Origin: Caulifigura coniformis | Lineage (GTDB): Bacteria; Planctomycetota; Planctomycetia; Planctomycetales; Planctomycetaceae | DNA length: 64,000 bases | Direction: 5' to 3' | Assembly (NCBI RefSeq): GCF_007745175.1 | Contig: NZ_CP036271.1 | Location: forward strand, 6,088,314 to 6,152,313 | Shown: positions 14,920-28,217 of the stretch, piece after piece | Layout: each line of letters opens with the position of its first letter | How positions within the stretch are numbered: the stretch's first letter is position 1 | Made by a program: the position numbers and the translations under genes | The notes under the pieces: model-generated | What the model was told of the DNA's origin: nothing | What the model saw: only the letters and a program-made list of their open reading frames with translations | Databases searched by the model: none

Positions 14920-15059
14920 GCTGCGTCGGGAGGTTGTTCGCCGTCGACGGGCGTGCGAGAATCGCTGATTCAAGCATGTCGTGCGGGGATCTCCTGGCGG
15001 GCAGTCGTTGCGGTTTGGGGGCCATTTCCTGAGACCGCAGGGCTCAATGGAGCGGAATG

Positions 15060-18000
15060 ATGCTGCGATTGCCGTTCGGGCGGTGGGCGAAGAGGGGGCA
15101 GGTACGGACGGGGTGGGGCTTGCAGCATTGGCGATCTGGGACTTCGGTCCAAGTCTGCGTGCTGGAAGATCGGACCTTGCTCGCGGCACCCGCGCTGGTG
15201 AAAGACATCGAGCCGGGTCAATACGATCCGGAGAGCGATCCGCAGTCGTTTACCGTGGTTGGCGACCGGGTCTTCTTCGTCTCGCAGTCGCCGTTGAAGA
15301 ATCCGGATCCCACTGAGCCGACGGAAATCCAGGATCAATATCGACTTTGCGTCACCGACGGCACGGCCGAGGGAACCTATGTCGTCGCGGCGAACCTCGC
15401 CTCGAGTCCCATGTACTCCTTGACGAATGTCAACGGCAAGGTGTTCTTCATCGCATCACAATTTGGCGCGGGGCGCGAACTGTGGGTGTCAGACGGCACG
15501 ACTGAAGGAACGCGGTTCGTCAAAGACATTCGCAGCTACGAGGAGTACAGCGGCGGTCCTTCGCAGATCGAGCGGCTCACCGCAGTGGGAGACACGCTGT
15601 ACTTTTTTGCCAACGACGGCATCCACGGAAAGGAGCTGTGGAAAAGCGACGGCACCACGGCCGGGACGGTCATGGTGAAGGATATCCGGCCGGGAGACGC
15701 CAGTTCGAACGCGCAGAAAATGTTCGCGGTGGGTGACAGGCTTCTCTTTCAGATGTTTGATTCTTCCGTGGGCAGCGAACTCTGGGTGAGCGACGGCACC
15801 GAGGCCGGCACTCACCTTCTCAAAGACATCTTGGCCGGGTCGCAGAGCACTGTCATCGGCGACTTCGCCGTTCTGGATGGCGACGCCTATTTCGTCGCGA
15901 CGGACGGTGTGAACTCCCGCCGCCTGTGGAAGACAGATGGGACAACGGACGGAACCGTCCTGGCCGCAGGTCCGGATGCCGGCGGGACGTTCGGTTCGCC
16001 GGTTGAGGTCGAGGCGGGGGACGGCTTTCTGTTCGTGACGCGTCAGAATGGCAGCGTCATCGAGTTGTGGAGGACGGACGGAACCGTTGGTGGAAGCGTC
16101 CAGCTGACGGATGGCACGACGGTCTCCTCGCCTGCCAACCTGCAGTTTGCGCTGGGCAAGCTTTACTTCAACGCGACTCAATCGACGACCGGCCGTGAGG
16201 TGTGGACTTCCGATGGCACTGTCGATGGAACGCAGATCCTGTTCGACGTTGCGCCGGGGCTCGCGTCCTCCGGCGGCTTTTCATGGCTGGTTGCCGCCAG
16301 CGATCGCGTCTATTTCCAGGCGACGGACCTCGTTCATGGCCGAGAGCGCTGGGTGACTGACGGAACGTCGGCGGGGACTCATCTCGTGGACGACTCACGG
16401 CCCGGGCCCGACGATTCGCGAGATTCGATCGGAGCTCCGGTTGGGTCGCGCATGGTCTACGCCCATGAGCAATCCCTGTATCACTACGAACTGTGGGTCA
16501 CGGACGGGACGGCTTCTGAAACGAAGCTGTTGAAAGACATGACTCCGGTCGCCGGCAATTCGTCCTCTCCTGTCGATCTCGTCAATGCGAACGGAACGTT
16601 GTTCTTTCTGGCGAGCGCGAATGGCGTGAACGGCGTGCTCTGGAAGAGCGATGGGACGGAGGCAGGGACTGTTCCGCTGACCACTCTGCCTGGCCTTGCG
16701 CCGGTTCAGGCCTACTACGGTCTCGTGGCCGTCGGAGGGACTGTTTTCTTCACCGGGATGGGAGCGGCGGGAGAGGAGCTGTGGAAGAGCGACGGAACAG
16801 TTGCCGGCACTGTCATGGTGAAAGACATCGCCAAAAACGGAGGCGATTCCAGTCCGCTGAATCTCATGACGGCTGGCGGAATTCTTTATTTCCTTGCATC
16901 GGACGGACGCGGGAGGCCGCGGGTGATGTGGAAGAGCGACGGAACCGAGGCCGGAACAGTTCCGGTGACGGCGTCCGACGGGTCTTCGATGTACCTGGGC
17001 TCAGAGACCGCCGCATTGAACGGCCGGCTGTACTTTCTGGGTTCTCACCCGGCGACGGGCGATAACGACCTGTGGAGCATCGGCGCGGGCGACGCGCACG
17101 CCACGCTCTTCAGAGATTTCGATTCTGGCCCGACCGGAATCACGCTACGAGATCTGTATGTCCTGAACGACTCGCTTTATTTCCGAGCTCACGACTCGGC
17201 TTACAACTGGTCTCTGTGGAAATCGGATGGGACGGGGGCCGGCACGGTCGAGATTTTGCCGGGCCTGATCCCGGCTGGCTGGAGCGGATACGTCATTGGG
17301 GACCGAGACGGTGAGTTACTGGTCGCGGCCAGCAAACTCGAACAACTGGAACCCTCCGTGATCATTGGGACGCTGTGGACTTCCGACGGAACGACTGCCG
17401 GGTCGCAGATCCTCAAAACATTCACCTGGGACTCGCTTTACTACACGGCGGAACGATTCACACCGGCGCATGGGGGGCGGTACTTCTTTTCAAATAACAC
17501 TCCGACAGACGGCCCCGAACTCTGGATGACCGATGGCACCTCCGAGGGGACGAGGCTCGTTCGCGATCTTCATCCGGGACCGGACGGCTCATATCCGCAC
17601 GGGCTGAAGATGATCCATGGCGTGCTCTATTTTGTGGCGAATGACAGCTACACGGACGGTTTCGAGCTGTGGAAGTCGGATGGAACGGCAGCGGGCACTG
17701 TGCAGGTGGCGGACCTCAATCTGGATGGCTCGGCCGGTCCCGGGTCTCTGACGCTGATCGGAACCAAGCTCTTTTTCGTCGCGGCGACTCCTGACGCCGG
17801 AGTCGAGTTGTGGTCGCTGGAGACCAACTCGGCGCCCACAGGCGTCTCGCTGCCGCCAGCAATGATTGCCGAGAACCTGCCCGGAGGAACGATCGTCGGT
17901 CAGCTCACTCCGATTGATGGTGAGCCTGTTGACGACTTTACGTTCGAATTCGTCGCCGGGACCGGAGACGCCGACAATTCGCTGTTTTCGATCGTCGATG

Positions 18001-20924
18001 GCATGCTGGTCACGACGACGGCGCTGGACTATGAGGTGAAGCAGACGTATTCGGTTCGAGTCCGCGTGACTGATGGCGGAGGCCTGACGGCGGATCAGGT
18101 GCTGTCCATTGGCGTTTTGGACGTCGACGAGTTCGAGGTCTCCGCTCCTGCTGACGTCGATGGAGCGGTCAATGCGGTCGCTGAAAGTGCCGCGGCGGGA
18201 GTTGCTGTCGGGATCACGGCATTCGCTGTGGATGCGGATGGATCGAACAATGCGGTCACCTATTCGTTGACGGACAACGCCGGCGGGCGGTTTGCGATTG
18301 ATGGGGTGACCGGCGTTGTCACGGTTGCGGATGGTTCGCTTCTGGACTACGAGGCGGCTCTTTCGCACTCGATTACCGTCCAGTCGACCAGCAGCGATGG
18401 CTCTTCGAGCGTGCAGTCGTTCACGATCCAGGTGGGAGATGTGAACGAGGTTCCCTCGCTGGCACTCACGAGCGTCGTCACATCGTTCAACGAGAATACG
18501 CAGTCGCCACTCATTCTGGCGGAAGTCAACATCCTGGATGACGCGCTGGGGACGAACGTGCTGCGGCTGGAAGGGCCGGACGCGTCGTTCTTCTTCCTGG
18601 AAGGCAAGCGCCTGCGGCTGAGGACGACCGGACTGTACGATTTCGAGGTCAAGCCGGCGTATCACGTGACGATCGTGGTCGACGACCCGGGGCTTGGCGG
18701 GGGCGTTGACGCCTCGATCGATTACACGCTGTCGATCAACGATGTCAACGAGCCACCGATCTGGTGGAGCCGCTCAGGCTATGTCTGGCTGCCGGAGAAC
18801 GTGGCGGTTCCATCGCGAGTGGGAACATTCGTCTATAAGGATGACGCCCTGGGATCGAATGTCGTGGCGCTGGGCGGTCCCGATGCCGCGTTCTTCGAAC
18901 TGATCGGCAACGAAGTGTGGTTCCGTTCGACGACGGTCGTCGACTTCGAAACCAAGGCTCGATACGAGATCGTCCTGACCGTCGATGACCCTTCGCTGGG
19001 ATCCGGCCCGGACAGCACGTCGGTCTATGCCTTCGACATCAGGGACGTGGACGAGTTCAATGTCGGGCCGGTGATGGATCGGAATTCGGCGCCGGACAGC
19101 GTGGCGGAGAACGCTCCCAACGGGACGCCGGTGGGAATTACGGCGTTTGCGAGCGATGCGGATGGGACGAACAGCGCGATTACCTACTCGTTGTGGGACA
19201 CGCGGGGCGGGCGGTTTGCCATTGATCCGGTGACGGGGGTGGTGACCGTGGGGAACGGGGCGCTGCTGGACCGGGAGGTGGCGGCGTCGTGGCCCATTAC
19301 GGTGCTGGCGACGAGCGAGGATGGCTCGGTGAGCGTCAAGACGTTCACGATTGCGATCGCGGATGTGGATGAGTTCAACGTCAGCCAGCTGCTGGACCTC
19401 AATCCGGCGCCCGAGCGAGTGCTGGAGAACGCCGCCAGCGGGACGCCGGTGGGGATCACGGGCTTCGGGATCGACCTGGACGCGACGAACAGCGGCGTGA
19501 CCTATTCGCTGTTCGATACGCGGGGCGGGCGGTTCGCGATTGATGCGGCGACGGGGGTGGTGACGGTGGGGAACGGGGCGCTCCTGAACCGGGAGGTGAC
19601 ACCGTCGTGGCCGATTACCGTCCTGGCGACCAGTCAGGATGGTTCGGTGAGCCTGAAGACGTTCACGATCGAACTGCAGGACGTGGACGAGTTCGACGTG
19701 GGGGCCGTGTTCGACATGGACCCGGCAGTCAACAGCGTGGCTGAGAATGCCGCGAACGGGACGGCCGTGGGGATCACGGGATTCGCCGTGGACCAGGATG
19801 CCACGACCAGCGCGGTGGCTTATTCGCTGAGCGACACCGCGGGGGGGCGGTTCACGATCCATCCGTTGACGGGAGTGGTGAGCGTGGCGAATGGCGCGCT
19901 TCTGGACCGGGAGGCGGCCAGTTCGTGGAACATCACCGTGCGGGCCCTGAGTGTGGATGGTTCGAGCAGCAGCAAAGTGTTCACTCTCGCGCTGAATGAT
20001 GTGGACGATCTGGATGTGGGGCCAATCACGGATCTGAACGCCGGGACCAACTCAATACCCGAGAATTCGCCGGCCGGCACGCTGGTGGGGGTGACAGCGT
20101 GGGCCGTGGATGGGGACGTGAGCAACAACAGTGTGAGCTACAGCCTGACGGAGTCGGCCGGGGGGCGGTTTGCGATCGATCCGGTCACAGGCGTGGTGAG
20201 CGTGGCGGCCGGGGCGGCGCTCGATTTCGAGGCGCAGGCGTTGCACGAGATCACGGTGCGGGCGACGGGGAGCGACGGCTCGACGTCGTCGCAGTCGTAC
20301 ACGATCGCCGTGAACAACGTGTTCGATGAGCCGCGGATCACACTTTCGAGCTCTGACGTTCCCGAGAACCTGCCCGCGGGGACGGTGGTGGGGAGCCTGG
20401 GAACGGCCGATCTGGACGTGACGGCCCCGGTCTACACGCTGGTGTCGGGAACGGGAGCGACGGACAACGGGAAGTTCCAGATCAGCGGGAACGAACTGCG
20501 GACGCGATCGCGTTTTAACTTCGAGGGGAAGTCGAGCTTTTCGATCCGGGTGCAGATGCGGGACGTGGGGGGACGCACGCTGACGCAGGTGCTCGTGATT
20601 GGCGTGACGAACGTGAACGAGGGGCCGACCGGCCTGACACTGTCGAGTTCGACAATCGCGGAGAACAACGCTGTGGGCGCGGCGGTGGGGACGCTGGCGG
20701 CGGTCGATCCCGATGAGGGGGATTCGTTCAACTACACGCTCGTTCCGGGGAGCGGCTCTGCGGACAACGGGCGGTTCTCGATTGACGGAGACACCCTGCG
20801 GGGGGGCGAATCGTTCGATTATGAACGGCAGCGGTCGTATTCGATCCGGGTCCGCGTGACGGACGCGGCCGGGGAGAGTTATGAGAAGGTGCTGACCATT
20901 CGTGTGAAGAACGGGCCGGGATGA
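15060..20924 (+). CDS. Giant surface protein: ELWxxDGT propeller plus ten cadherin-like domains
   Basis: About 1,954 residues. GGAG is better spaced for the ATG at 15060 than for the one at 15057. The N-terminus lacks a classic signal but carries VLEDRTLLAAP, the LEPR-XLL-type motif of planctomycete exported giants. Residues ~60-925 hold about 18 copies of ELWxSDGTxxGTxxVKDI, each with a Y/FF strand between copies, suggesting beta-propeller blades. Residues ~925-1954 hold ten cadherin-like domains, each with a VAEN start, a DxD centre, a LDxE motif and a closing DVDE or NVNE calcium linker. No anchor follows the last domain. Likely role: calcium-dependent adhesion or matrix protein. Confidence 0.9.
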   Translation: MLRLPFGRWAKRGQVRTGWGLQHWRSGTSVQVCVLEDRTLLAAPALVKDIEPGQYDPESDPQSFTVVGDRVFFVSQSPLKNPDPTEPTEIQDQYRLCVTDGTAEGTYVVAANLASSPMYSLTNVNGKVFFIASQFGAGRELWVSDGTTEGTRFVKDIRSYEEYSGGPSQIERLTAVGDTLYFFANDGIHGKELWKSDGTTAGTVMVKDIRPGDASSNAQKMFAVGDRLLFQMFDSSVGSELWVSDGTEAGTHLLKDILAGSQSTVIGDFAVLDGDAYFVATDGVNSRRLWKTDGTTDGTVLAAGPDAGGTFGSPVEVEAGDGFLFVTRQNGSVIELWRTDGTVGGSVQLTDGTTVSSPANLQFALGKLYFNATQSTTGREVWTSDGTVDGTQILFDVAPGLASSGGFSWLVAASDRVYFQATDLVHGRERWVTDGTSAGTHLVDDSRPGPDDSRDSIGAPVGSRMVYAHEQSLYHYELWVTDGTASETKLLKDMTPVAGNSSSPVDLVNANGTLFFLASANGVNGVLWKSDGTEAGTVPLTTLPGLAPVQAYYGLVAVGGTVFFTGMGAAGEELWKSDGTVAGTVMVKDIAKNGGDSSPLNLMTAGGILYFLASDGRGRPRVMWKSDGTEAGTVPVTASDGSSMYLGSETAALNGRLYFLGSHPATGDNDLWSIGAGDAHATLFRDFDSGPTGITLRDLYVLNDSLYFRAHDSAYNWSLWKSDGTGAGTVEILPGLIPAGWSGYVIGDRDGELLVAASKLEQLEPSVIIGTLWTSDGTTAGSQILKTFTWDSLYYTAERFTPAHGGRYFFSNNTPTDGPELWMTDGTSEGTRLVRDLHPGPDGSYPHGLKMIHGVLYFVANDSYTDGFELWKSDGTAAGTVQVADLNLDGSAGPGSLTLIGTKLFFVAATPDAGVELWSLETNSAPTGVSLPPAMIAENLPGGTIVGQLTPIDGEPVDDFTFEFVAGTGDADNSLFSIVDGMLVTTTALDYEVKQTYSVRVRVTDGGGLTADQVLSIGVLDVDEFEVSAPADVDGAVNAVAESAAAGVAVGITAFAVDADGSNNAVTYSLTDNAGGRFAIDGVTGVVTVADGSLLDYEAALSHSITVQSTSSDGSSSVQSFTIQVGDVNEVPSLALTSVVTSFNENTQSPLILAEVNILDDALGTNVLRLEGPDASFFFLEGKRLRLRTTGLYDFEVKPAYHVTIVVDDPGLGGGVDASIDYTLSINDVNEPPIWWSRSGYVWLPENVAVPSRVGTFVYKDDALGSNVVALGGPDAAFFELIGNEVWFRSTTVVDFETKARYEIVLTVDDPSLGSGPDSTSVYAFDIRDVDEFNVGPVMDRNSAPDSVAENAPNGTPVGITAFASDADGTNSAITYSLWDTRGGRFAIDPVTGVVTVGNGALLDREVAASWPITVLATSEDGSVSVKTFTIAIADVDEFNVSQLLDLNPAPERVLENAASGTPVGITGFGIDLDATNSGVTYSLFDTRGGRFAIDAATGVVTVGNGALLNREVTPSWPITVLATSQDGSVSLKTFTIELQDVDEFDVGAVFDMDPAVNSVAENAANGTAVGITGFAVDQDATTSAVAYSLSDTAGGRFTIHPLTGVVSVANGALLDREAASSWNITVRALSVDGSSSSKVFTLALNDVDDLDVGPITDLNAGTNSIPENSPAGTLVGVTAWAVDGDVSNNSVSYSLTESAGGRFAIDPVTGVVSVAAGAALDFEAQALHEITVRATGSDGSTSSQSYTIAVNNVFDEPRITLSSSDVPENLPAGTVVGSLGTADLDVTAPVYTLVSGTGATDNGKFQISGNELRTRSRFNFEGKSSFSIRVQMRDVGGRTLTQVLVIGVTNVNEGPTGLTLSSSTIAENNAVGAAVGTLAAVDPDEGDSFNYTLVPGSGSADNGRFSIDGDTLRGGESFDYERQRSYSIRVRVTDAAGESYEKVLTIRVKNGPG
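19044..20315 (+). repeat. Four in-frame 318-bp tandem repeats (cadherin-like units)
   Basis: Equivalent linker codons (GAxGTGGAxGA) fall at 19044, 19362, 19680 and 19998, and the next linker at 20316: exactly 318 bp (106 residues) each time, with no insertions. The first two units share long near-identical DNA, for example around 19203-19290 and 19521-19608. A further 318-bp unit lies at 18120-18437. Confidence 0.85.
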
Positions 20925-21063: not shown

Positions 21064-21618
21064 TCATTTTTCCAGGAAGACGCAGAGGACCTGGGCGGGC
21101 TTTTTGTGGGGGTTGTGGAGGCGGTGGGGGGTATCGGCCTCGAAGTAGAGGGCGTCTCCATCGGTGAGCTGGTAGGAATCTTTGCCGTATTCGAGCGTCA
21201 CCTTTCCGTCCAGGACGATCAGGAATTCTTCCCCCTCGTGCGGGCGGGAGATATCGCGTCCACCTCCGGCGGGGACTTCGAGGACGAACGGGTTCATCTG
21301 GCGATTCGCGCGGCCGCGGATCAGGCTGTGGTAGACGATGTTGGAGTTCTGCGGATCGCGCTCGATGACGCGGCGGTCCTTTCTGCGGGTGAGGACAATC
21401 TGGGGCCGGGCATCGAGGCCTTCGAGGAGTTTTGAGAGCGGGATGCGGAGCGCTTCCGCGACTCGGGCGAGAGCGGGAAGCGAGGGGGTGATGCGGAAGT
21501 TCTCGACTTTCGAGAGCCAGCTGCGCGTCTGGCCGGCGGCGGCGGCCGTTTCTTCGAGACTCAGGCCGAGATCGAGACGGCGCTGCTTGATGCGCTGGGA
21601 GAGTTCGACGAGGTTCAT
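21064..21618 (-). CDS. XRE-family regulator with C-terminal cupin sensor
   Basis: 184 residues from ATG 21618; the open frame extends upstream, but those residues are Pro-rich and unlike the family. Residues ~5-65 form an XRE helix-turn-helix (LSQRIKQRRLDLGLSLEETA, then SWLSKVENFRITPSLPALAR). Residues ~105-184 form a cupin (PHEGEEFLIVLDGKVTLEYG, DGDALYFEADTPHRL). XRE-cupin proteins are ligand-responsive regulators, often of neighbouring catabolic genes. It is divergent from a PhoD-type phosphatase and lies next to a phosphonate operon, so control of those genes is a plausible inference. Confidence 0.88.
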   Translation of the reverse strand: MNLVELSQRIKQRRLDLGLSLEETAAAAGQTRSWLSKVENFRITPSLPALARVAEALRIPLSKLLEGLDARPQIVLTRRKDRRVIERDPQNSNIVYHSLIRGRANRQMNPFVLEVPAGGGRDISRPHEGEEFLIVLDGKVTLEYGKDSYQLTDGDALYFEADTPHRLHNPHKKPAQVLCVFLEK

Positions 21619-21724
21619 GGCGGGCGGTTGAGAAGCGGGCGTGGTTGGTGGCAGGGGAGACGTGATGGGCCTACGCGGGAAATTCCTCCCCTGCTGCGCG
21701 TTTCCTAATAGTCCCAATTGTTGC

Positions 21725-21753
21725 TTGACGGGAAACGTGTGTCCAATTAGGTT
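21725..21753 (+). promoter_or_regulatory. Candidate promoter for the PhoD-like gene
   Basis: TTGACG (21725-21730), 17-bp spacer, TAGGTT (21748-21753). CCAATT occurs at 21714-21719 and again at 21743-21748 within the promoter, and CCTAAT (21704-21709) is mirrored by ATTAGG (21746-21751). These could be sites for the divergently encoded XRE-cupin regulator. Confidence 0.45.
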
Positions 21754-21806
21754 CGACCGGGTCGTCACGTTGCTTTGAGTGACGGCGTGCCGCGGCCGAG
21801 GACATC

Positions 21807-23144
21807 ATGACATCAAACACGGATACGCCAATCAGCGGGATTGCCCGCCGTGAGTTTCTGGCGGGGGCAGTGGCCCTGGGGGCGGGCGCGCTGGTGGAGT
21901 CGGTTCCGGCGCAGTCGGGCGAGAAGACGCCGCTGTTGGGGCCGATCCTGGGGCATGCGGACGCGGAGTCCGCGATGGTGTGGATGCGTGCGCAGTCGGC
22001 CGGCGAGTATACGCTGGAGGTGTTTCCGGAGTCGGGCGGGCCGGCGCAGCGGATGAAGGGGGAGGCCCGTGATGACGGCGACCTGTGTCTTCAATGGCGA
22101 GTGACGGGTTTGAAGCCGGGATCGCGGTTTCGTTACCGGATCGTGCAGGGCGAGAGGGTGATCGCGGGGGATGAACGGCAGGTTCTGTCGACGGCCCCGA
22201 AGCCGGGGGCGCCTTCGAAAGTGCGGCTGGCAATCAGTTCGTGTGCCAAGGAAGACGCCGGCAGCCGCGATGTGTGGAACGGCATGGCCGGGGAGGATGT
22301 GGAGGCGGTGGTGTTGATCGGGGACACGCCGTATATCGACAGCACGGAACTGGCAACGCAGACCAGTCGTCACCGGGAGTTCGCGGCGGTTCCGGAATAC
22401 CAGGCGCTGTTGCGTTCGCGGCCGTGCTGGTGGACGTGGGACGATCACGATTTCGCGGGGAATGATTCGTCCGGGATCGCGTCGGGCAAGGAGAATTCGC
22501 GGCTGGTGGTGACGCGGTATCGTCCGCAGAAGGAGTATGGCGACGGTGAAGGGGGCATCTATACGAGCTTCCGTCGCGGGCCGGTGGAGGTGTTTCTGCT
22601 CGACACCCGCTGGTATTCGATGACCGAGCCGTCGTTTGCCGCGCCGCACAAGCCGACTCTCCTGGGGGCGAAGCAGTGGGAATGGCTCAAACAGGGGCTG
22701 CTGGCCTCGACGGCGCCGTTCAAGCTGCTGGCCTGCGGAGTGATCTGGGACGACAAGGAGAACTCGGAGTCGGATGACTGGGGGACCTACAAGCACGAGC
22801 TAACGGCGATCCAGAAGTTCATCGGCGCGAACAAGATTGCGGGCGTCGTGCTGGTGGGAGGGGACATCCATGCGAGCCGGGTGCTGCGCTACAAGACGGA
22901 GAAGACCGTCGGTTACGAACTGGTGCAGTTCATCGCATCCCCCATTCATGGCAGCACGATTCCGTCTCTCAACGTGTATCACCCTGACCTCGTCCGGAGC
23001 GCCGTGGAGCCGCATGTGTTTCTGCGGGTTGATGCGGACGACCGTGTGACGCCGGCCAGGCTGGATGCGTCGCTCATCAATCGGAAGGGGGAGACGGTGT
23101 TCAGCTATCACGTGACGGCGGATGACCTGCGACCGAAAGCGTGA
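21807..23144 (+). CDS. PhoD-like alkaline phosphatase/phosphodiesterase, Tat-exported
   Basis: 445 residues. ARREFLAGAVALGAGALV is a twin-arginine signal. A fibronectin-like N-terminal domain (ESAMVWMRAQ…GLKPGSRFRYRI) precedes the metallophosphatase domain with LIGDTPYID, WWTWDDHDFAGND, a DTRW strand and VLVGGDIHASRV, the calcium/iron-dependent PhoD-type metal motifs. It would release phosphate from phosphoesters outside the cytoplasm. Its place just upstream of phosphonate genes and divergent from a regulator suggests a phosphorus-acquisition locus. Confidence 0.9.
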   Translation: MTSNTDTPISGIARREFLAGAVALGAGALVESVPAQSGEKTPLLGPILGHADAESAMVWMRAQSAGEYTLEVFPESGGPAQRMKGEARDDGDLCLQWRVTGLKPGSRFRYRIVQGERVIAGDERQVLSTAPKPGAPSKVRLAISSCAKEDAGSRDVWNGMAGEDVEAVVLIGDTPYIDSTELATQTSRHREFAAVPEYQALLRSRPCWWTWDDHDFAGNDSSGIASGKENSRLVVTRYRPQKEYGDGEGGIYTSFRRGPVEVFLLDTRWYSMTEPSFAAPHKPTLLGAKQWEWLKQGLLASTAPFKLLACGVIWDDKENSESDDWGTYKHELTAIQKFIGANKIAGVVLVGGDIHASRVLRYKTEKTVGYELVQFIASPIHGSTIPSLNVYHPDLVRSAVEPHVFLRVDADDRVTPARLDASLINRKGETVFSYHVTADDLRPKA

Positions 23145-23260: not shown

Positions 23261-24493
23261 ATGCCCATGTTCTCTGTCAACCAACGCACGTATCGTCCCT
23301 CCGCTCGTCCGGTCGCCGTGATCTGTCTGGACGGCTCGGCCGATGAATACCTGGACTGCGCCCTGGCCCGCGGGTTCATGCCGAACCTGGGGCGGATGAG
23401 CGTCGAGGGCTGGCGCGGATTCGCGCGGGCGGCGATGCCGACGTTCACCAACGTGAACAACAGCAGCATCGTCACGGGGACGCCGCCGAGCGTGCACGGG
23501 ATTGGCGGGAACTTCTTCTTCGACACGGCGAGTGGTGAAGAAGTGATGATGAACTCCGCGAAGTTCCTTCGCGTCCAGACGATCTTTCCCCATGCCCAGC
23601 GTGCGGGACGGAAGGTGGCGGTCGTCACGGCGAAGGAGAAGCTGCGGGATATCTTCGCGGACGGTCTGATCAGTGAAGGGGGGATCGCCTTCTCGGCCGA
23701 GAAGGCGGGGCAGGCCGTGATCGAGACGCACGGGATTGGCGATGTCGAGGCGCTGGCCGGTCCCACGCCGGCGATCTACAGCGGCGATGCCAGCGTGTAT
23801 GTGCTGCGGGCCGGTGTGGCCCTTCTGAAAGCCGGGCGGGCCGATTTTCTGTACCTGAGCACGACGGACTACATGCAGCACAAGTACGCTCCGGAAGCTC
23901 CCGAAGTGCTGAAGTTCTACGGCGAACTGGATGCCGAGATCGGAAAGCTGCTGGACGCGGGAGCGATTGTGGGGGTGACCGCGGACCACGGCATGAATGC
24001 GAAGCAGCTTCCGGATGGTTCGCCGAAAGTGATCTATCTCGAAAGCGAACTGGTGGAACAGTTCGGCCCGGGGTTCCGGGTGATCCTGCCGATCACCGAC
24101 CCGTATGTGGCGCATCACGGGGCGCTGGGGTCGTTTGCCCAGGTGCATCTGCCGCCGGGGATGGCGGCGGGGGGCGTCCGCGACTGGCTGCTGCAGCGGC
24201 CGGGCGTCACGGAATGCCACGATCGGAAGACTGCGGCGCGGCTGATGGAGCTGCCGGAAGACCGGATGGGGGACCTGGTGGTGGCGTCGGCGCGGGACGT
24301 CGTGCTGGGGCGGACGCCGGAATATCACGATCTCAAGGCGCTGGCGGGCGCGCTCAGGAGCCACGGCGGGCGTTACGAGGAGATGGTGCCGCTGGTGTTC
24401 AGCGAGCCGCTCAACGCCGAGTACGCAGCCCGGGTGCTGGGGGACGTTCGGAACTTCGACGTCTTCGAAATCACCTGCAACGGGACGCACTGA
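23261..24493 (+). CDS. phnA: Phosphonoacetate hydrolase
   Basis: 410 residues, alkaline-phosphatase superfamily. It cleaves the C-P bond of phosphonoacetate to acetate and phosphate. Visible metal and nucleophile residues: VICLDGSADEY (D24), MPTFTNVNNSSIVTG (the Thr-Asn nucleophile region, about 61-64), STTDYMQH (D203, H207) and TADHGM (D242, H243). The D-x3-H and DH spacing is that of characterised PhnA. HHGALGSF near the C-terminus carries the remaining His. It is the first gene of a four-gene operon with transporter and dehydrogenases, spaced 4 bp from the next gene. Confidence 0.9.
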   Translation: MPMFSVNQRTYRPSARPVAVICLDGSADEYLDCALARGFMPNLGRMSVEGWRGFARAAMPTFTNVNNSSIVTGTPPSVHGIGGNFFFDTASGEEVMMNSAKFLRVQTIFPHAQRAGRKVAVVTAKEKLRDIFADGLISEGGIAFSAEKAGQAVIETHGIGDVEALAGPTPAIYSGDASVYVLRAGVALLKAGRADFLYLSTTDYMQHKYAPEAPEVLKFYGELDAEIGKLLDAGAIVGVTADHGMNAKQLPDGSPKVIYLESELVEQFGPGFRVILPITDPYVAHHGALGSFAQVHLPPGMAAGGVRDWLLQRPGVTECHDRKTAARLMELPEDRMGDLVVASARDVVLGRTPEYHDLKALAGALRSHGGRYEEMVPLVFSEPLNAEYAARVLGDVRNFDVFEITCNGTH

Positions 24494-24497
24494 TCGC

Positions 24498-25772
24498 ATG
24501 TCTTCCAAAGAGCATCACAGTCCGGAATTTCTGCGCGCCCGGCGGCGGTCGCTCGGGGCGGTGATGTTCTGTTACCTCTTTTACTACACGGGCCGGCAGA
24601 CGTTCGGGTTCGCGATTCCAGGGATCCAGGCGGAACTGGGAATCGACAAGCAGACGCTGGGGTGGATCAGCGCCGCGATGCTGTGGAGCTATGCGGCCGG
24701 GCAGATGATCAACGGCAATCTGGGGGACCGTTTTGGCGGTCGGCGGATGATGTGCCTGGGAGCGGTGGCGTCGTTCATTCTCAACTGGCTGACGAGCTTC
24801 GGCAGCGGAACCCGGTCGCTGGCGACCGCGTGGGGGCTGAATGGACTGGCGCAAAGCATGGGCTGGGCGCCGGGAAGCCGGCTGGTTTCCAACTGGTTCA
24901 CCGCGGGAGAGCGCGGGCGTGCGTTCGGGATGTACGTCTTCGCGGCGGGACTGTCGTCGGTCCTTTCGTATGTGACGTCGCTGGTGGTGCTGGATGTACT
25001 CCACCTGGACTGGCGGTGGATCTTCCGGCTGCCGGTGCTGCTGATGTTGCTGGGGGGCTTTGTGGTGTGGCTCGTTGCGCGCGATCGCCCGAGCGATCTG
25101 GGGTTTGCCGATCTCCAGGACGACGCAGGCGGTACCGAGGAGGGCCCGATCGAGCACGAGACGGCGTGGCAGCGTTACGCACTGGCGCTGTCGAACGGGC
25201 GGCTGCTGCTCGCGGGGCTCGCCATCGGGTTTCAGAACACGGTTCGCTACGGCCTGTTGATCTGGGTGCCGGTGTACTTTCTGGGGAAGGACTTCAAGGA
25301 CGATCCGGTCGGCAAGTGGATCAGCATTGCGCTGCCGATCGGGATGGCGCTCGGTGCGGTGACGAGCGGATGGATTTCCGACCGGCTGTGCGGGTCGCGT
25401 CGGAGCGGCGTGATTTCGTCGTTCATGTTGCTGGCCGCGGCGTCGGCGATGTTGATGTACTGGTTGCCGGCGGGAAGCCGATTCGGGGTGCCTGTCCTGT
25501 TCCTGGCGGGATTCTTCGCGTATGGACCGCAGTCGGCGTTCTGGGCACTGGCGCCGGACCTCCTGGGACGAGCGCGCGCGGGGACGGCCGTCGGGGTGAT
25601 GAACTTTTTCGCTTATGCGATGGCGGGGCTTGGCGAGCCGTTGATCGGGTGGATGGTCCAGCACAATCCGTTTGCCACGACGCCCGGCGTGGAGAATGTC
25701 GCCCTCGTCTTTCCGATCGTCGCTGCGGCTGCCGGCTGCAGCGCTGCACTTGCCCTGTTGATCCGCCGATGA
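24498..25772 (+). CDS. MFS transporter of the organophosphate:phosphate antiporter type
   Basis: 424 residues, about twelve hydrophobic helices. The N-terminal FYYTGRQTFGFAIPGIQ and GQMINGNLGDRFGGRRMM (the MFS loop 2-3 motif) resemble GlpT/UhpT-like OPA carriers. It lies 4 bp after phnA and overlaps the next gene by ATGA. Uptake of a phosphonate such as phosphonoacetate or 2-hydroxyethylphosphonate is inferred from context. No ABC-type phosphonate transporter is in the window. Confidence 0.85.
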   Translation: MSSKEHHSPEFLRARRRSLGAVMFCYLFYYTGRQTFGFAIPGIQAELGIDKQTLGWISAAMLWSYAAGQMINGNLGDRFGGRRMMCLGAVASFILNWLTSFGSGTRSLATAWGLNGLAQSMGWAPGSRLVSNWFTAGERGRAFGMYVFAAGLSSVLSYVTSLVVLDVLHLDWRWIFRLPVLLMLLGGFVVWLVARDRPSDLGFADLQDDAGGTEEGPIEHETAWQRYALALSNGRLLLAGLAIGFQNTVRYGLLIWVPVYFLGKDFKDDPVGKWISIALPIGMALGAVTSGWISDRLCGSRRSGVISSFMLLAAASAMLMYWLPAGSRFGVPVLFLAGFFAYGPQSAFWALAPDLLGRARAGTAVGVMNFFAYAMAGLGEPLIGWMVQHNPFATTPGVENVALVFPIVAAAAGCSAALALLIRR

Positions 25773-26788
25773 AGACTGCCCGCATTCAGTTGTTTCGAGG
25801 TCCCGGCCGACCGTTCGAACTGAGCACCGCACCGCTGCCGGAGACCCTCAACGCCGGCGACGTGCTGGTGCGGATTTCTCTGGCCACGATCTGCGGATCG
25901 GACCTGCATACGACGGAGGGGCGTCGTTCGGCTCCGTTACCGTGCGTCCTGGGACATGAAGCGGTGGGGCATGTGGTCGCGAGCGCCCGCGAGGGGGTGT
26001 CTGCCGGCCAACGCGTGACTTGGACACTGGCCGACTCGTGCGGAGAGTGTGCGCCGTGCACGCGCTGGAGCCTGCCTCAGAAGTGCGAGCATCTGTTCAA
26101 GTATGGCCATGCGGCGCTCGACGATGGAACGGGCCTGAACGGCTGCTATGCCGATCACATCGTGCTGAGGCGGGGGACGCAGGTGATGTCGGTTCCGGAG
26201 ATTCTGTCGGACGCCGTTGCCGCGCCTGCGAACTGCGCGCTGGCGACGATTGTGAACGCACTGGAGGCGCTGCCTGACGCGTGTGACCGCGCCCTGGTGC
26301 AGGGGGCGGGGCTCCTGGGGATTTATGCCTGTGCCTGGCTGAAGCATCGCGGCGTGCGCGAGGTGTACTGCACCGATGTGAGTCCGGAGAGGCTGGCGGT
26401 CGCAGCGCAGTTTGGTGGAATCCCCGTTGCGGCGGGGGACACGCCGCCGCAGGTGGATCTCGTCCTGGAGGTGACCGGCGTTTCGGCAGTCGTGCCGGCC
26501 GGCGTTGCCGCGCTGCGCCCCGGGGGACATTACGTCTGGGCCGGGATGGTGCATCCCCAGACGCAGCTTGAGCTGACGGGGGAAGCCGTTCTGCGGAAGT
26601 GTCTGACGGTGCGCGGCGTCCATAATTATGCGCCGCGACACCTGTCCCTGGGGCTCGAATTCCTTGCCCAGAATCTGCACCTCCCGTTCGAACACCTCAC
26701 GAGTGCGCCCCTGCCGCTTGAGCGTCTCGACGAAGGCTTCGAACTCACGCGCAGCCGCCGGTGGCAGCGCGTCGCCATTCAACCCTGA
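25769..26788 (+). CDS. Zn-dependent alcohol dehydrogenase, phosphonate-catabolism (HpnZ) type
   Basis: 339 residues; the ATG overlaps the transporter stop (ATGA). Medium-chain dehydrogenase: catalytic-zinc ligands C42 (TICGSDLHT) and H63/E64 (LGHEAVGHV), and structural-zinc cysteines C91, C94, C97 and C106 (CGECAPC…C). The nucleotide-binding strand VQGAGLLGIYACAWLK follows. Together with phnA and phnY it matches the family described as a putative phosphonate-catabolism alcohol dehydrogenase. A likely reaction is oxidation of 2-hydroxyethylphosphonate to phosphonoacetaldehyde, feeding the next enzyme. That substrate is inference. Confidence 0.85.
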   Translation: MKTARIQLFRGPGRPFELSTAPLPETLNAGDVLVRISLATICGSDLHTTEGRRSAPLPCVLGHEAVGHVVASAREGVSAGQRVTWTLADSCGECAPCTRWSLPQKCEHLFKYGHAALDDGTGLNGCYADHIVLRRGTQVMSVPEILSDAVAAPANCALATIVNALEALPDACDRALVQGAGLLGIYACAWLKHRGVREVYCTDVSPERLAVAAQFGGIPVAAGDTPPQVDLVLEVTGVSAVVPAGVAALRPGGHYVWAGMVHPQTQLELTGEAVLRKCLTVRGVHNYAPRHLSLGLEFLAQNLHLPFEHLTSAPLPLERLDEGFELTRSRRWQRVAIQP

Positions 26789-26801
26789 ACCTTTCGATTC
26801 C

Positions 26802-28217
26802 ATGCTTTCGCTCCCGAGTTACATCGCCGGCGCCGCTGTTGTCACCGATCGCTGGATCGACGTCTTCAATCCGTGGAACGGGGAGGCCGTCGGCCGGGTG
26901 GCGGCAATCGGGAACGATCAGCTGCATGCGGCGATCGAGGCCCATCGTGCGGCCCACGAGCCGCTGACCCGCTACGAACGCGGCCGCATCCTGAACGAGG
27001 TGCGCGGGCTTCTGGAGGCCCGTCGTGAGGAACTGGCCCGGCTGATCACTTCCGAATCGGGGCTGTGCCTGCGCGAGACGCGGTACGAGGTGGGCCGGGC
27101 ATGCGACGTGTTCGCGTTCGCAGCGATGGAGGCACTGCGCGACGATGGGCAGACGTTCTCCTGCGATATCTCGCCGACGGGCAAGGCGCGGAAGATTTTC
27201 ACGCTGCGGGAGCCCCTGTCGCTCGTCGCCGCCATTACGCCGTTCAACCATCCGCTGAACCAGGTGGCTCACAAGCTGGCGCCGGCGGTGGCGGCGGGCG
27301 CGCCGGTCATTCTGAAGCCTTCGGAGAAGACTCCGCTGTCGGCGGTCCGGCTTGTCGAGCTGCTGTACGAGGCGGGATTGCCAGGGTGGATGCTTAGCTG
27401 CATCCACGGTGATCTTGATGTGGTGACGCGGCCGATGATCCGCGACGAACGGGTCGATCTCGTGACGTTCACCGGCAGCGCCAGGGTGGGGAAGGAGATT
27501 GCGTCGACGGCGGGTTACAAGAAGACCTGCCTCGAACTGGGCGGACATTCGCCGCTGATCGTGCTGGACGACGCCGACCTCGATCTCGCCGCCAGGCTGG
27601 CTTGTGAAGGCTGTTTCCGGAACAGCGGGCAGCGCTGCACGGCGGTCCGGCGCGTGATGGTGCAGGAGGGGGTTGTCGAAGAGTTCACGAAGCGTTTCCT
27701 GGCGCTGGCGAAGACCTACCTCTGCGGCGATCCGACGAGCGAGGCGGTGCTGGTGGGGACGGTGATCGACGAGGCGGCCGCGGTGGGGCTCGAGCAGGCG
27801 GTGCAGGACGCGGTGAATCGGGGCGCGAAACTTCTGCTGGGCGGACAACGCCGTGGCGCCCAACTGCAGCCGACGGTGCTCGCCGACGTTCCTCGCGATT
27901 CGACTTTGGGGACCTGCGAATGCTTTGGTCCGATCGCGCCGATCTTCGCGGTGCGCGATCTCGATGACGCCATCGAGTATTCCAATGCGACGCCGTACGG
28001 GCTGTCGAGCGGAATCGTCACCCGGAACCTGGACCTGGCGATTCGGGCCGTGAAAGGGATCAAGGCGGGGACGGTGAACGTGAATGAGATTCCGGGTTAC
28101 CGGCTGGAACTGAGCCCGTTCGGCGGCGTCAAGGACAGCGGACTGGGGATCAAAGAAGGGGTCATCGAGGCGATGAAGTTCATGACGACGGTGAAGACGT
28201 TTTCACTGCCGTGGTAG
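26802..28217 (+). CDS. phnY: Phosphonoacetaldehyde dehydrogenase
   Basis: 471 residues from ATG 26802, 13 bp after the previous stop. NAD(P)-dependent aldehyde dehydrogenase: ITPFNHPLNQ, LKPSEKTPLS, VTFTGSARVGKEI (cofactor motif), LELGGHSP (general base E245) and GQRCTAVRRV (catalytic C279). It oxidises phosphonoacetaldehyde to phosphonoacetate, the substrate of PhnA two genes upstream. The PhnA neighbourhood makes this assignment better than a generic ALDH. Confidence 0.88.
   Translation: MLSLPSYIAGAAVVTDRWIDVFNPWNGEAVGRVAAIGNDQLHAAIEAHRAAHEPLTRYERGRILNEVRGLLEARREELARLITSESGLCLRETRYEVGRACDVFAFAAMEALRDDGQTFSCDISPTGKARKIFTLREPLSLVAAITPFNHPLNQVAHKLAPAVAAGAPVILKPSEKTPLSAVRLVELLYEAGLPGWMLSCIHGDLDVVTRPMIRDERVDLVTFTGSARVGKEIASTAGYKKTCLELGGHSPLIVLDDADLDLAARLACEGCFRNSGQRCTAVRRVMVQEGVVEEFTKRFLALAKTYLCGDPTSEAVLVGTVIDEAAAVGLEQAVQDAVNRGAKLLLGGQRRGAQLQPTVLADVPRDSTLGTCECFGPIAPIFAVRDLDDAIEYSNATPYGLSSGIVTRNLDLAIRAVKGIKAGTVNVNEIPGYRLELSPFGGVKDSGLGIKEGVIEAMKFMTTVKTFSLPW

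Follow-up and report, generated by a model that had tools for sequence, protein, structure and literature searches.

Gene content and family assignments

A 64,000-nt stretch of the genome of the planctomycete Caulifigura coniformis (contig NZ_CP036271.1, positions 6,088,314 to 6,152,313; hereafter, the window) carries a cluster of genes for phosphonate catabolism, in which an HpnZ-like alcohol dehydrogenase gene lies between genes for a carrier and a PhnY-type dehydrogenase, downstream of phnA. A preliminary description had placed a four-gene set (PhnA, carrier, alcohol dehydrogenase and PhnY) at 23261-28217, and open reading frames and family profiles bear this out. Those limits were too narrow, however, as a PhoD-like gene and a divergent regulator gene, both overlooked, belong to the conserved cluster, which comprises:

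21064-21768, - strand: HTH-cupin regulator, divergent from the cluster (PF07883 and HTH_31/HTH_3 above cut-off)
21807-23144, + strand: PhoD-like phosphatase/phosphodiesterase with a twin-arginine (Tat) type N-terminus, presumed exported (PF09423, 93.1 bits, cut-off 27)
23261-24493, + strand: PhnA, phosphonoacetate hydrolase (TIGR02335, 459.1 bits, cut-off of 407.55 passed)
24498-25772, + strand: OPA-like MFS carrier, putative phosphonate importer (PF07690; best NCBIfam match TIGR00881, 186.1 bits, cut-off 407.75)
25769-26788, + strand: HpnZ-like zinc alcohol dehydrogenase (TIGR03366, 312.8 bits, cut-off 328.1)
26802-28217, + strand: PhnY-type phosphonoacetaldehyde dehydrogenase (TIGR03250, 610.8 bits, cut-off 635.65)

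The last four genes form one tight unit: 4 nt separate phnA from the carrier gene, the carrier and HpnZ-like genes overlap by 4 nt (ATGA), and 13 nt lie between the HpnZ-like gene and phnY, taking the ATG at 26802 as the start of phnY and setting aside the mechanical ORF start at 26628. Translation of the regulator probably begins at codon 51, an ATG at 21618, because its relatives align only from about that codon.

The closest solved structures to PhnA are the phosphonoacetate hydrolases 1ei6 (E 4.6e-110) and 3szy. For the PhnY-type protein the closest solved chain is 4i3t (E 6.1e-140), labelled 'Aldehyde dehydrogenase (NAD+)', which we take to be the published PhnY, a phosphonoacetaldehyde dehydrogenase. 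This protein narrowly misses the TIGR03250 cut-off, and is called PhnY-type for that reason, though it matches the family over its full length and the next family (413 bits) lies 198 bits behind. With PhnA and PhnY both close to solved enzymes, phosphonoacetaldehyde is the likely intermediate of the pathway. The HpnZ-like protein resembles the TIGR03366 family in being full length and in keeping the signature residues described below, but it is 15 bits short of the curated cut-off, hence 'HpnZ-like'. Matches to TIGR03366 at E <= 1e-40 were found in 67 genomes, 45 of them below the cut-off, the window genome included; many of the weaker matches among those 45 are presumably other dehydrogenases. 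The NCBIfam name of the family, 'putative phosphonate catabolism associated alcohol dehydrogenase', gives no substrate. The carrier is far below the TIGR00881 cut-off, and its closest solved proteins are still SLC37A4 and GlpT. The PhoD-like protein contains the PF09423 domain but misses the NCBIfam PhoD equivalog (39.8 vs 1000 bits). A twin-arginine (RR) motif is present at its N-terminus and in all four relatives checked.

The genome, a single 6.76-Mb contig (completeness 99.9%), was searched throughout for several other phosphonate enzymes. The preliminary description had remarked on the missing usual entry enzyme, PhnW, and had allowed that phnW or pbfA might lie elsewhere; neither was recovered above its cut-off. 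The best PhnW match (TIGR02326) scored 135 bits against a cut-off of 400.8, and belongs to a class V aminotransferase (G000:C1:3588175) that fits the BhcA-type aspartate-glyoxylate aminotransferases (236.5 bits) better than PhnW-AepZ (179.4 bits, cut-off 360.8). For PbfA (NF049939, cut-off 525) the best match was a bioA-type protein at 213 bits, followed by one at 145.5 bits, and the four class III aminotransferases of the genome best fit argD, bioA, hemL and one unassigned type, none of them reaching PbfA. Entry of aminoethylphosphonate via a hidden PhnW or PbfA was rejected, as all candidates are far below the cut-offs. PhnX gave at best 61.8 bits where 220 are needed, and PhnJ gave no match at all in the genome, while the E. 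coli control was detected, so that PhnA alone among the carbon-phosphorus (C-P) cleaving enzymes tested (PhnA, PhnX and PhnJ) is above cut-off. Phosphoenolpyruvate (PEP) mutase was likewise below its cut-off throughout the genome (best 21 bits vs 31.5), and phosphonate biosynthesis with HpnZ as a reductase was rejected on that account.

Related clusters and the distribution of PhnW

PhnA was sought in three phylum samples, and was found in 12 of 392 Planctomycetota genomes, in 12 of 387 from the phylum of G392 (a Brevifollis genome) and in 20 of 398 from the phylum of G412. The neighbourhoods of 49 PhnA loci were tabulated. The gene order PhoD-PhnA-carrier-HpnZ-PhnY of the window recurs in four of them (L190, from Verrucomicrobium sp. 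BvORR034, L191, L192 and L195), with the PhoD-like gene directly upstream of PhnA in each, and a fifth (L193, from Brevifollis gellanilyticus) has the same order without PhoD. Homologues of the HTH-cupin regulator adjoin the cluster in L190, L191, L193 and L195 (50-84% identity). PhnA, carrier and PhnY, as a group, share 72-85% identity with the window proteins; HpnZ shares 64-78% and PhoD 61-80%. A more distant planctomycete locus (L078) has an HTH-cupin gene divergent from HpnZ-PhnA-PhnY. No convincing operator was found between the divergent genes, where the window and its relatives have only 10-base words in common. A 19-base word, GTTTCTTGATTGTCACAAA, is common to L191:10520-10660 and L193:6790-7998, in the spacer beside the HTH-cupin gene, and is possibly an operator.

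Maximum-likelihood analysis of the 49 PhnA proteins puts the window protein and exactly five Verrucomicrobial proteins in a six-row clade with support of 100/100, a kinship missed in the preliminary description, and the remaining planctomycete PhnA proteins elsewhere. Lateral transfer of the cluster is likely, because the window PhnA nests among Verrucomicrobial PhnA. At the thresholds used, neither PhnA nor HpnZ was matched in the only other sampled genome of the genus (G087). The cluster shows no foreign base composition, its G+C of 0.63-0.67 not being distinct from that of neighbouring genes, so the case for transfer rests on the PhnA phylogeny, the protein identities and the absence of PhnA and HpnZ from G087. 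The upstream neighbour of the cluster (15057-20924) encodes a protein of 1955 aa with repeated ELWVSDGT-type and cadherin-like segments.

Nine of the 49 loci have HpnZ within about 8 kb of PhnA. None of the nine has PhnW there, compared with 23 of the 40 others that do (Fisher p 0.0019); some contigs end nearby (e.g., L081 and L084), and absence at such loci may be false. For these counts, HpnZ matches below 150 bits (L083 and L085) were treated as other dehydrogenases, which the family match backs for L085. The same contrast is seen in whole genomes: of the nine that have HpnZ next to PhnA, one has PhnW, against 26 of the other 35 (p 0.00096), counting as present the PhnW of G148, which is cut by a contig end and below the cut-off. 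The one genome with both (G412) carries them in two separate clusters, PhnW-PhnA-PhnY (L213) and PhnA-HpnZ-PhnY (L214). PhnW above cut-off is also missing from 15 of 21 genomes that were chosen for an HpnZ locus with PhnA/PhnY; the full set held 23 genomes, those of L103 and L106 not having been chosen for PhnA/PhnY, and PhnW occurs in seven of the 23. Linkage of HpnZ to PhnA arises at three separate places in the PhnA tree (the window clade, L078 and L214), or four with L188, where HpnW is closer than HpnZ. In these PhnA loci HpnZ and PhnW exclude each other, and HpnZ takes the place of PhnW in several PhnA lineages.

Residues and gene partners of HpnZ

An AlphaFold2 model of the HpnZ-like protein, built with 39 relatives, has a mean pLDDT of 95.8. 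Its best solved match is 1vj0 (Z 44.5, root-mean-square deviation 1.6, 336 residues aligned, 30% identity), and among the matches listed the solved relatives are generic alcohol dehydrogenases and their relatives, none labelled as acting on phosphonates. Residues C42, S44, H47, H63, E64 and C156, which we take to be the catalytic zinc and relay positions, are invariant in all 39 aligned HpnZ proteins, of which the window protein is one. Five further residues, R53, K111, H114, N286 and Y287, are equally invariant, and were defined in this analysis as the HpnZ signature. Among six control dehydrogenases from the same surveys, none has Arg or Lys at position 53 or 111 and none has N286, while H114 occurs in one and Y287 in two. 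In the alignments R53 stands opposite a Trp of 1rjw and K111 opposite a Val of 1vj0. Positions 53 and 111 presumably line the alcohol pocket (corresponding to Leu57 and Leu116 of the horse liver enzyme, and Trp54 of the yeast enzyme), so that R53 and K111 are presumed to be cationic residues at pocket positions. An Asp or Glu at position 203 favours NAD, by the usual rule for such folds, and since all 39 HpnZ proteins have one or the other, we propose that the enzyme is NAD-preferring. In the HpnZ proteins of L144, L150, L155 and L165, few or none of the four structural-zinc cysteines remain, but all catalytic and signature residues are kept.

The gene partners of HpnZ were compared at 99 loci, consisting of the window, 18 others from Planctomycetota, and the best 80 of 514 confirmed in a scan of named genome contigs. 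Within about 7.5 kb, 21 have PhnA/PhnY only, 22 have PhnX only, one has both, and 55 have neither; PhnW is found in nine, and 68 have a carrier of a recognised type. PhnX and PhnY act on a common substrate, phosphonoacetaldehyde, and give different products. As this aldehyde is all that the two sets of partners share, the simplest reading is that the HpnZ reaction forms phosphonoacetaldehyde, and the alcohol from which a single oxidation gives this product is 2-hydroxyethylphosphonate (HEP). Acetaldehyde and ethanol were considered as substrates and rejected, since HpnZ also occurs with PhnY/PhnA where PhnX is missing.

At some of the 55 'neither' loci there are PhnCDE carriers, TRAP carriers or DUF5690 membrane proteins, and others, a Poribacterial group, have nothing recognisable. 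The DUF5690 proteins (PF18943, no known function) directly adjoin HpnZ in many loci of Planctomycetota and Verrucomicrobia, and look like its carrier. A second HpnZ module was also seen, mostly in metagenome-assembled genomes of presumed anaerobes:

DUF5690 gene beside HpnZ: L063:6029-8566, L070:5382-7884, L072:5345-7906 and others
Second HpnZ module: L114:2597-9089, L124:3142-9092, L133:439-8032, L140:534-10364, L147:2-8735

Each example of this module has two citrate-synthase-like proteins (PF00285), and all except L147, which is at a contig end, have a CoA-acylating aldehyde dehydrogenase; that of L114 is nearest to SauS, sulfoacetaldehyde dehydrogenase (495 bits, cut-off 600). A HAD hydrolase is present in L114 and L124, and PhnW lies inside the module in L133. 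The module may represent an undescribed phosphonoacetyl-CoA route or a sulfonate route.

A proposed route for 2-hydroxyethylphosphonate and its alternatives

On balance, we think it probable that the cluster was acquired laterally and serves to scavenge a phosphonate, HEP. The OPA-like carrier would take up HEP, and the HpnZ-like zinc enzyme would oxidise it with NAD+ to phosphonoacetaldehyde. PhnY would convert the aldehyde to phosphonoacetate, so pulling an uphill first step, and PhnA would hydrolyse phosphonoacetate to acetate and phosphate. The predicted sum is HEP + 2 NAD+ + 2 H2O -> acetate + phosphate + 2 NADH, with no need for an amine partner. As a prior step, and a weaker suggestion, the exported PhoD-like enzyme might release HEP from esters. 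Import and oxidation of HEP had already been put forward in the preliminary description, and are now favoured by the PhnW-replacement pattern and the conserved cationic residues. The identities of PhnA and PhnY, the gene order and the lack of PhnW, PbfA, PhnX and PhnJ above cut-off in the genome are read from the sequence directly; the reaction itself, the substrate and direction of the dehydrogenase, the cargo of the carrier and the roles of the PhoD-like protein and the regulator are what we infer from sequence and gene context.

Several known systems offer parallels. In the cited passages on the PhnWYA pathway for 2-aminoethylphosphonate (PMC12366243), the PhnY and PhnA steps and the products, acetate and phosphate, are the same, but its PhnW is replaced in the window by the HpnZ-like alcohol dehydrogenase, PhnW being below cut-off in this genome. 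The PbfD2-PhnY-PhnA route of Luteolibacter luteus, as given in the cited part of PMC10590968, is alike in that another oxidoreductase feeds PhnY and PhnA without PhnW, whereas PbfD2 is FAD-dependent and acts on N-methyl-aminoethylphosphonate, and the window enzyme appears to be a zinc, NAD-type alcohol dehydrogenase. According to the same part of that paper, phosphonoacetaldehyde was no substrate for the alcohol dehydrogenase used there, so a specialised enzyme is to be expected. In Sulfitobacter (PMC5649143, cited passages) HEP is likewise a phosphorus source and a PhoD-like enzyme has been postulated, but C-P lyase releases ethylene, and the window genome is without PhnJ.

A number of observations weigh against the HEP route. 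The HpnZ-like and PhnY-type proteins both fall narrowly below their curated cut-offs. The exclusion counts are not phylogenetically independent, with one clade contributing six of the nine HpnZ loci; PhnW shares the locus in two of the 22 PhnA/PhnY-linked HpnZ loci (L104 and L166); and a recognised entry enzyme (any of three) is missing from 12 of the 49 PhnA loci. The HpnZ family may be non-uniform, because 55 of the 99 loci lack PhnA/PhnY and PhnX nearby, among them a Poribacterial group near which no known phosphonate gene was seen. Finally, none of the tested routes from an amine to phosphonoacetaldehyde was found in the genome, but HpnW/PbfB-D and PhnY*/PhnZ were not searched for.

The last point bears on one alternative, in which aminoethylphosphonate would be turned into phosphonoacetaldehyde by an unrecognised class V aminotransferase or by an HpnW/PbfB-D-type FAD oxidoreductase, and HpnZ would have an accessory role. 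Such an oxidoreductase could also supply the aldehyde, and HpnW lies beside PhnA without PhnW in six of the 49 loci (L185, L186, L188, L189, L194 and L196), but window-type clusters are without HpnW. The aminotransferase G000:C1:3588175 scores 179 bits to PhnW-AepZ, yet is far below the cut-off, fits BhcA better and lies about 2.5 Mb away, and we regard this explanation as unlikely. HpnZ might instead work in reverse, turning surplus phosphonoacetaldehyde into HEP to relieve the cell of a reactive aldehyde, while the carrier imports phosphonoacetate or another precursor. Alcohol dehydrogenases of this kind work reversibly, and the isolated equilibrium favours reduction. In biosynthesis, the same conversion is made by iron-type enzymes (PhpC; cited passage of PMC9381506). 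However, no PhnW or PEP mutase above cut-off was found in the genome to make the aldehyde, and HpnZ occurs where PhnW is missing rather than alongside it, so reversal seems improbable. We also give little credence to oxidation of some other hydroxylated phosphonate (e.g., a HEP monoester or dihydroxyethylphosphonate) that reaches the PhnY/PhnA route later. Genes for Phn-HD oxygenases do adjoin some HpnZ genes in loci without PhnX or PhnA (L102, L110, L132 and L163), and the window-type cluster includes a PhoD-like esterase, but the window cluster encodes neither an oxygenase nor a lyase that could convert such a product into phosphonoacetaldehyde.

A broader form of the HEP route, which we advance only tentatively and consider rather doubtful as a whole, is that the six genes together make up a complete unit for esterified HEP that spreads by lateral transfer. 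Outside the cytoplasm, the PhoD-like enzyme would free HEP from polysaccharide or lipid esters; the carrier, HpnZ as a catabolic HEP dehydrogenase, and PhnY/PhnA would complete its breakdown without ethylene; and HpnZ would serve, in parallel with PhnW, as an entry enzyme of wide occurrence. A Tat-signal PhoD-like gene in an HEP cluster fits release from HEP esters, but PhoD proteins are common and it may encode a plain phosphatase. In the cited passages of PMC5649143, alkaline-phosphatase-like enzymes (PhoD-family proteins and phosphonate monoester hydrolases) are postulated to free HEP and methylphosphonate from polysaccharide esters, and HEP with its esters is reported there and in PMC9381506 to count among the notable phosphonates of marine dissolved organic matter.

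No description of a catabolic HEP dehydrogenase was found in the literature searched (most subscription journals being outside its scope); the term 'HEP dehydrogenase' was met only in PMC12366243, the cited passage of which weighs HEP oxidation as a role for PbfF, which belongs to another family, and disfavours it. The same searches returned nothing that names 'HpnZ' with phosphonate, or 'TIGR03366', and nothing that joins phosphonate, PhoD, phosphonoacetate hydrolase and Verrucomicrobia. The association of HpnZ with phosphonates is itself already known, since NCBIfam calls the family phosphonate catabolism associated; the present additions are the pattern of PhnW replacement, the cluster from PhoD to PhnY with its likely origin, and the signature residues. 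HEP breakdown, as the cited passages describe it, proceeds through C-P lyase and sets ethylene free, whereas a dehydrogenase route would yield acetate without ethylene. If the proposed route is true, HpnZ would be a marker of HEP use in genomes overlooked by surveys based on PhnW, PhnX or PhnJ.

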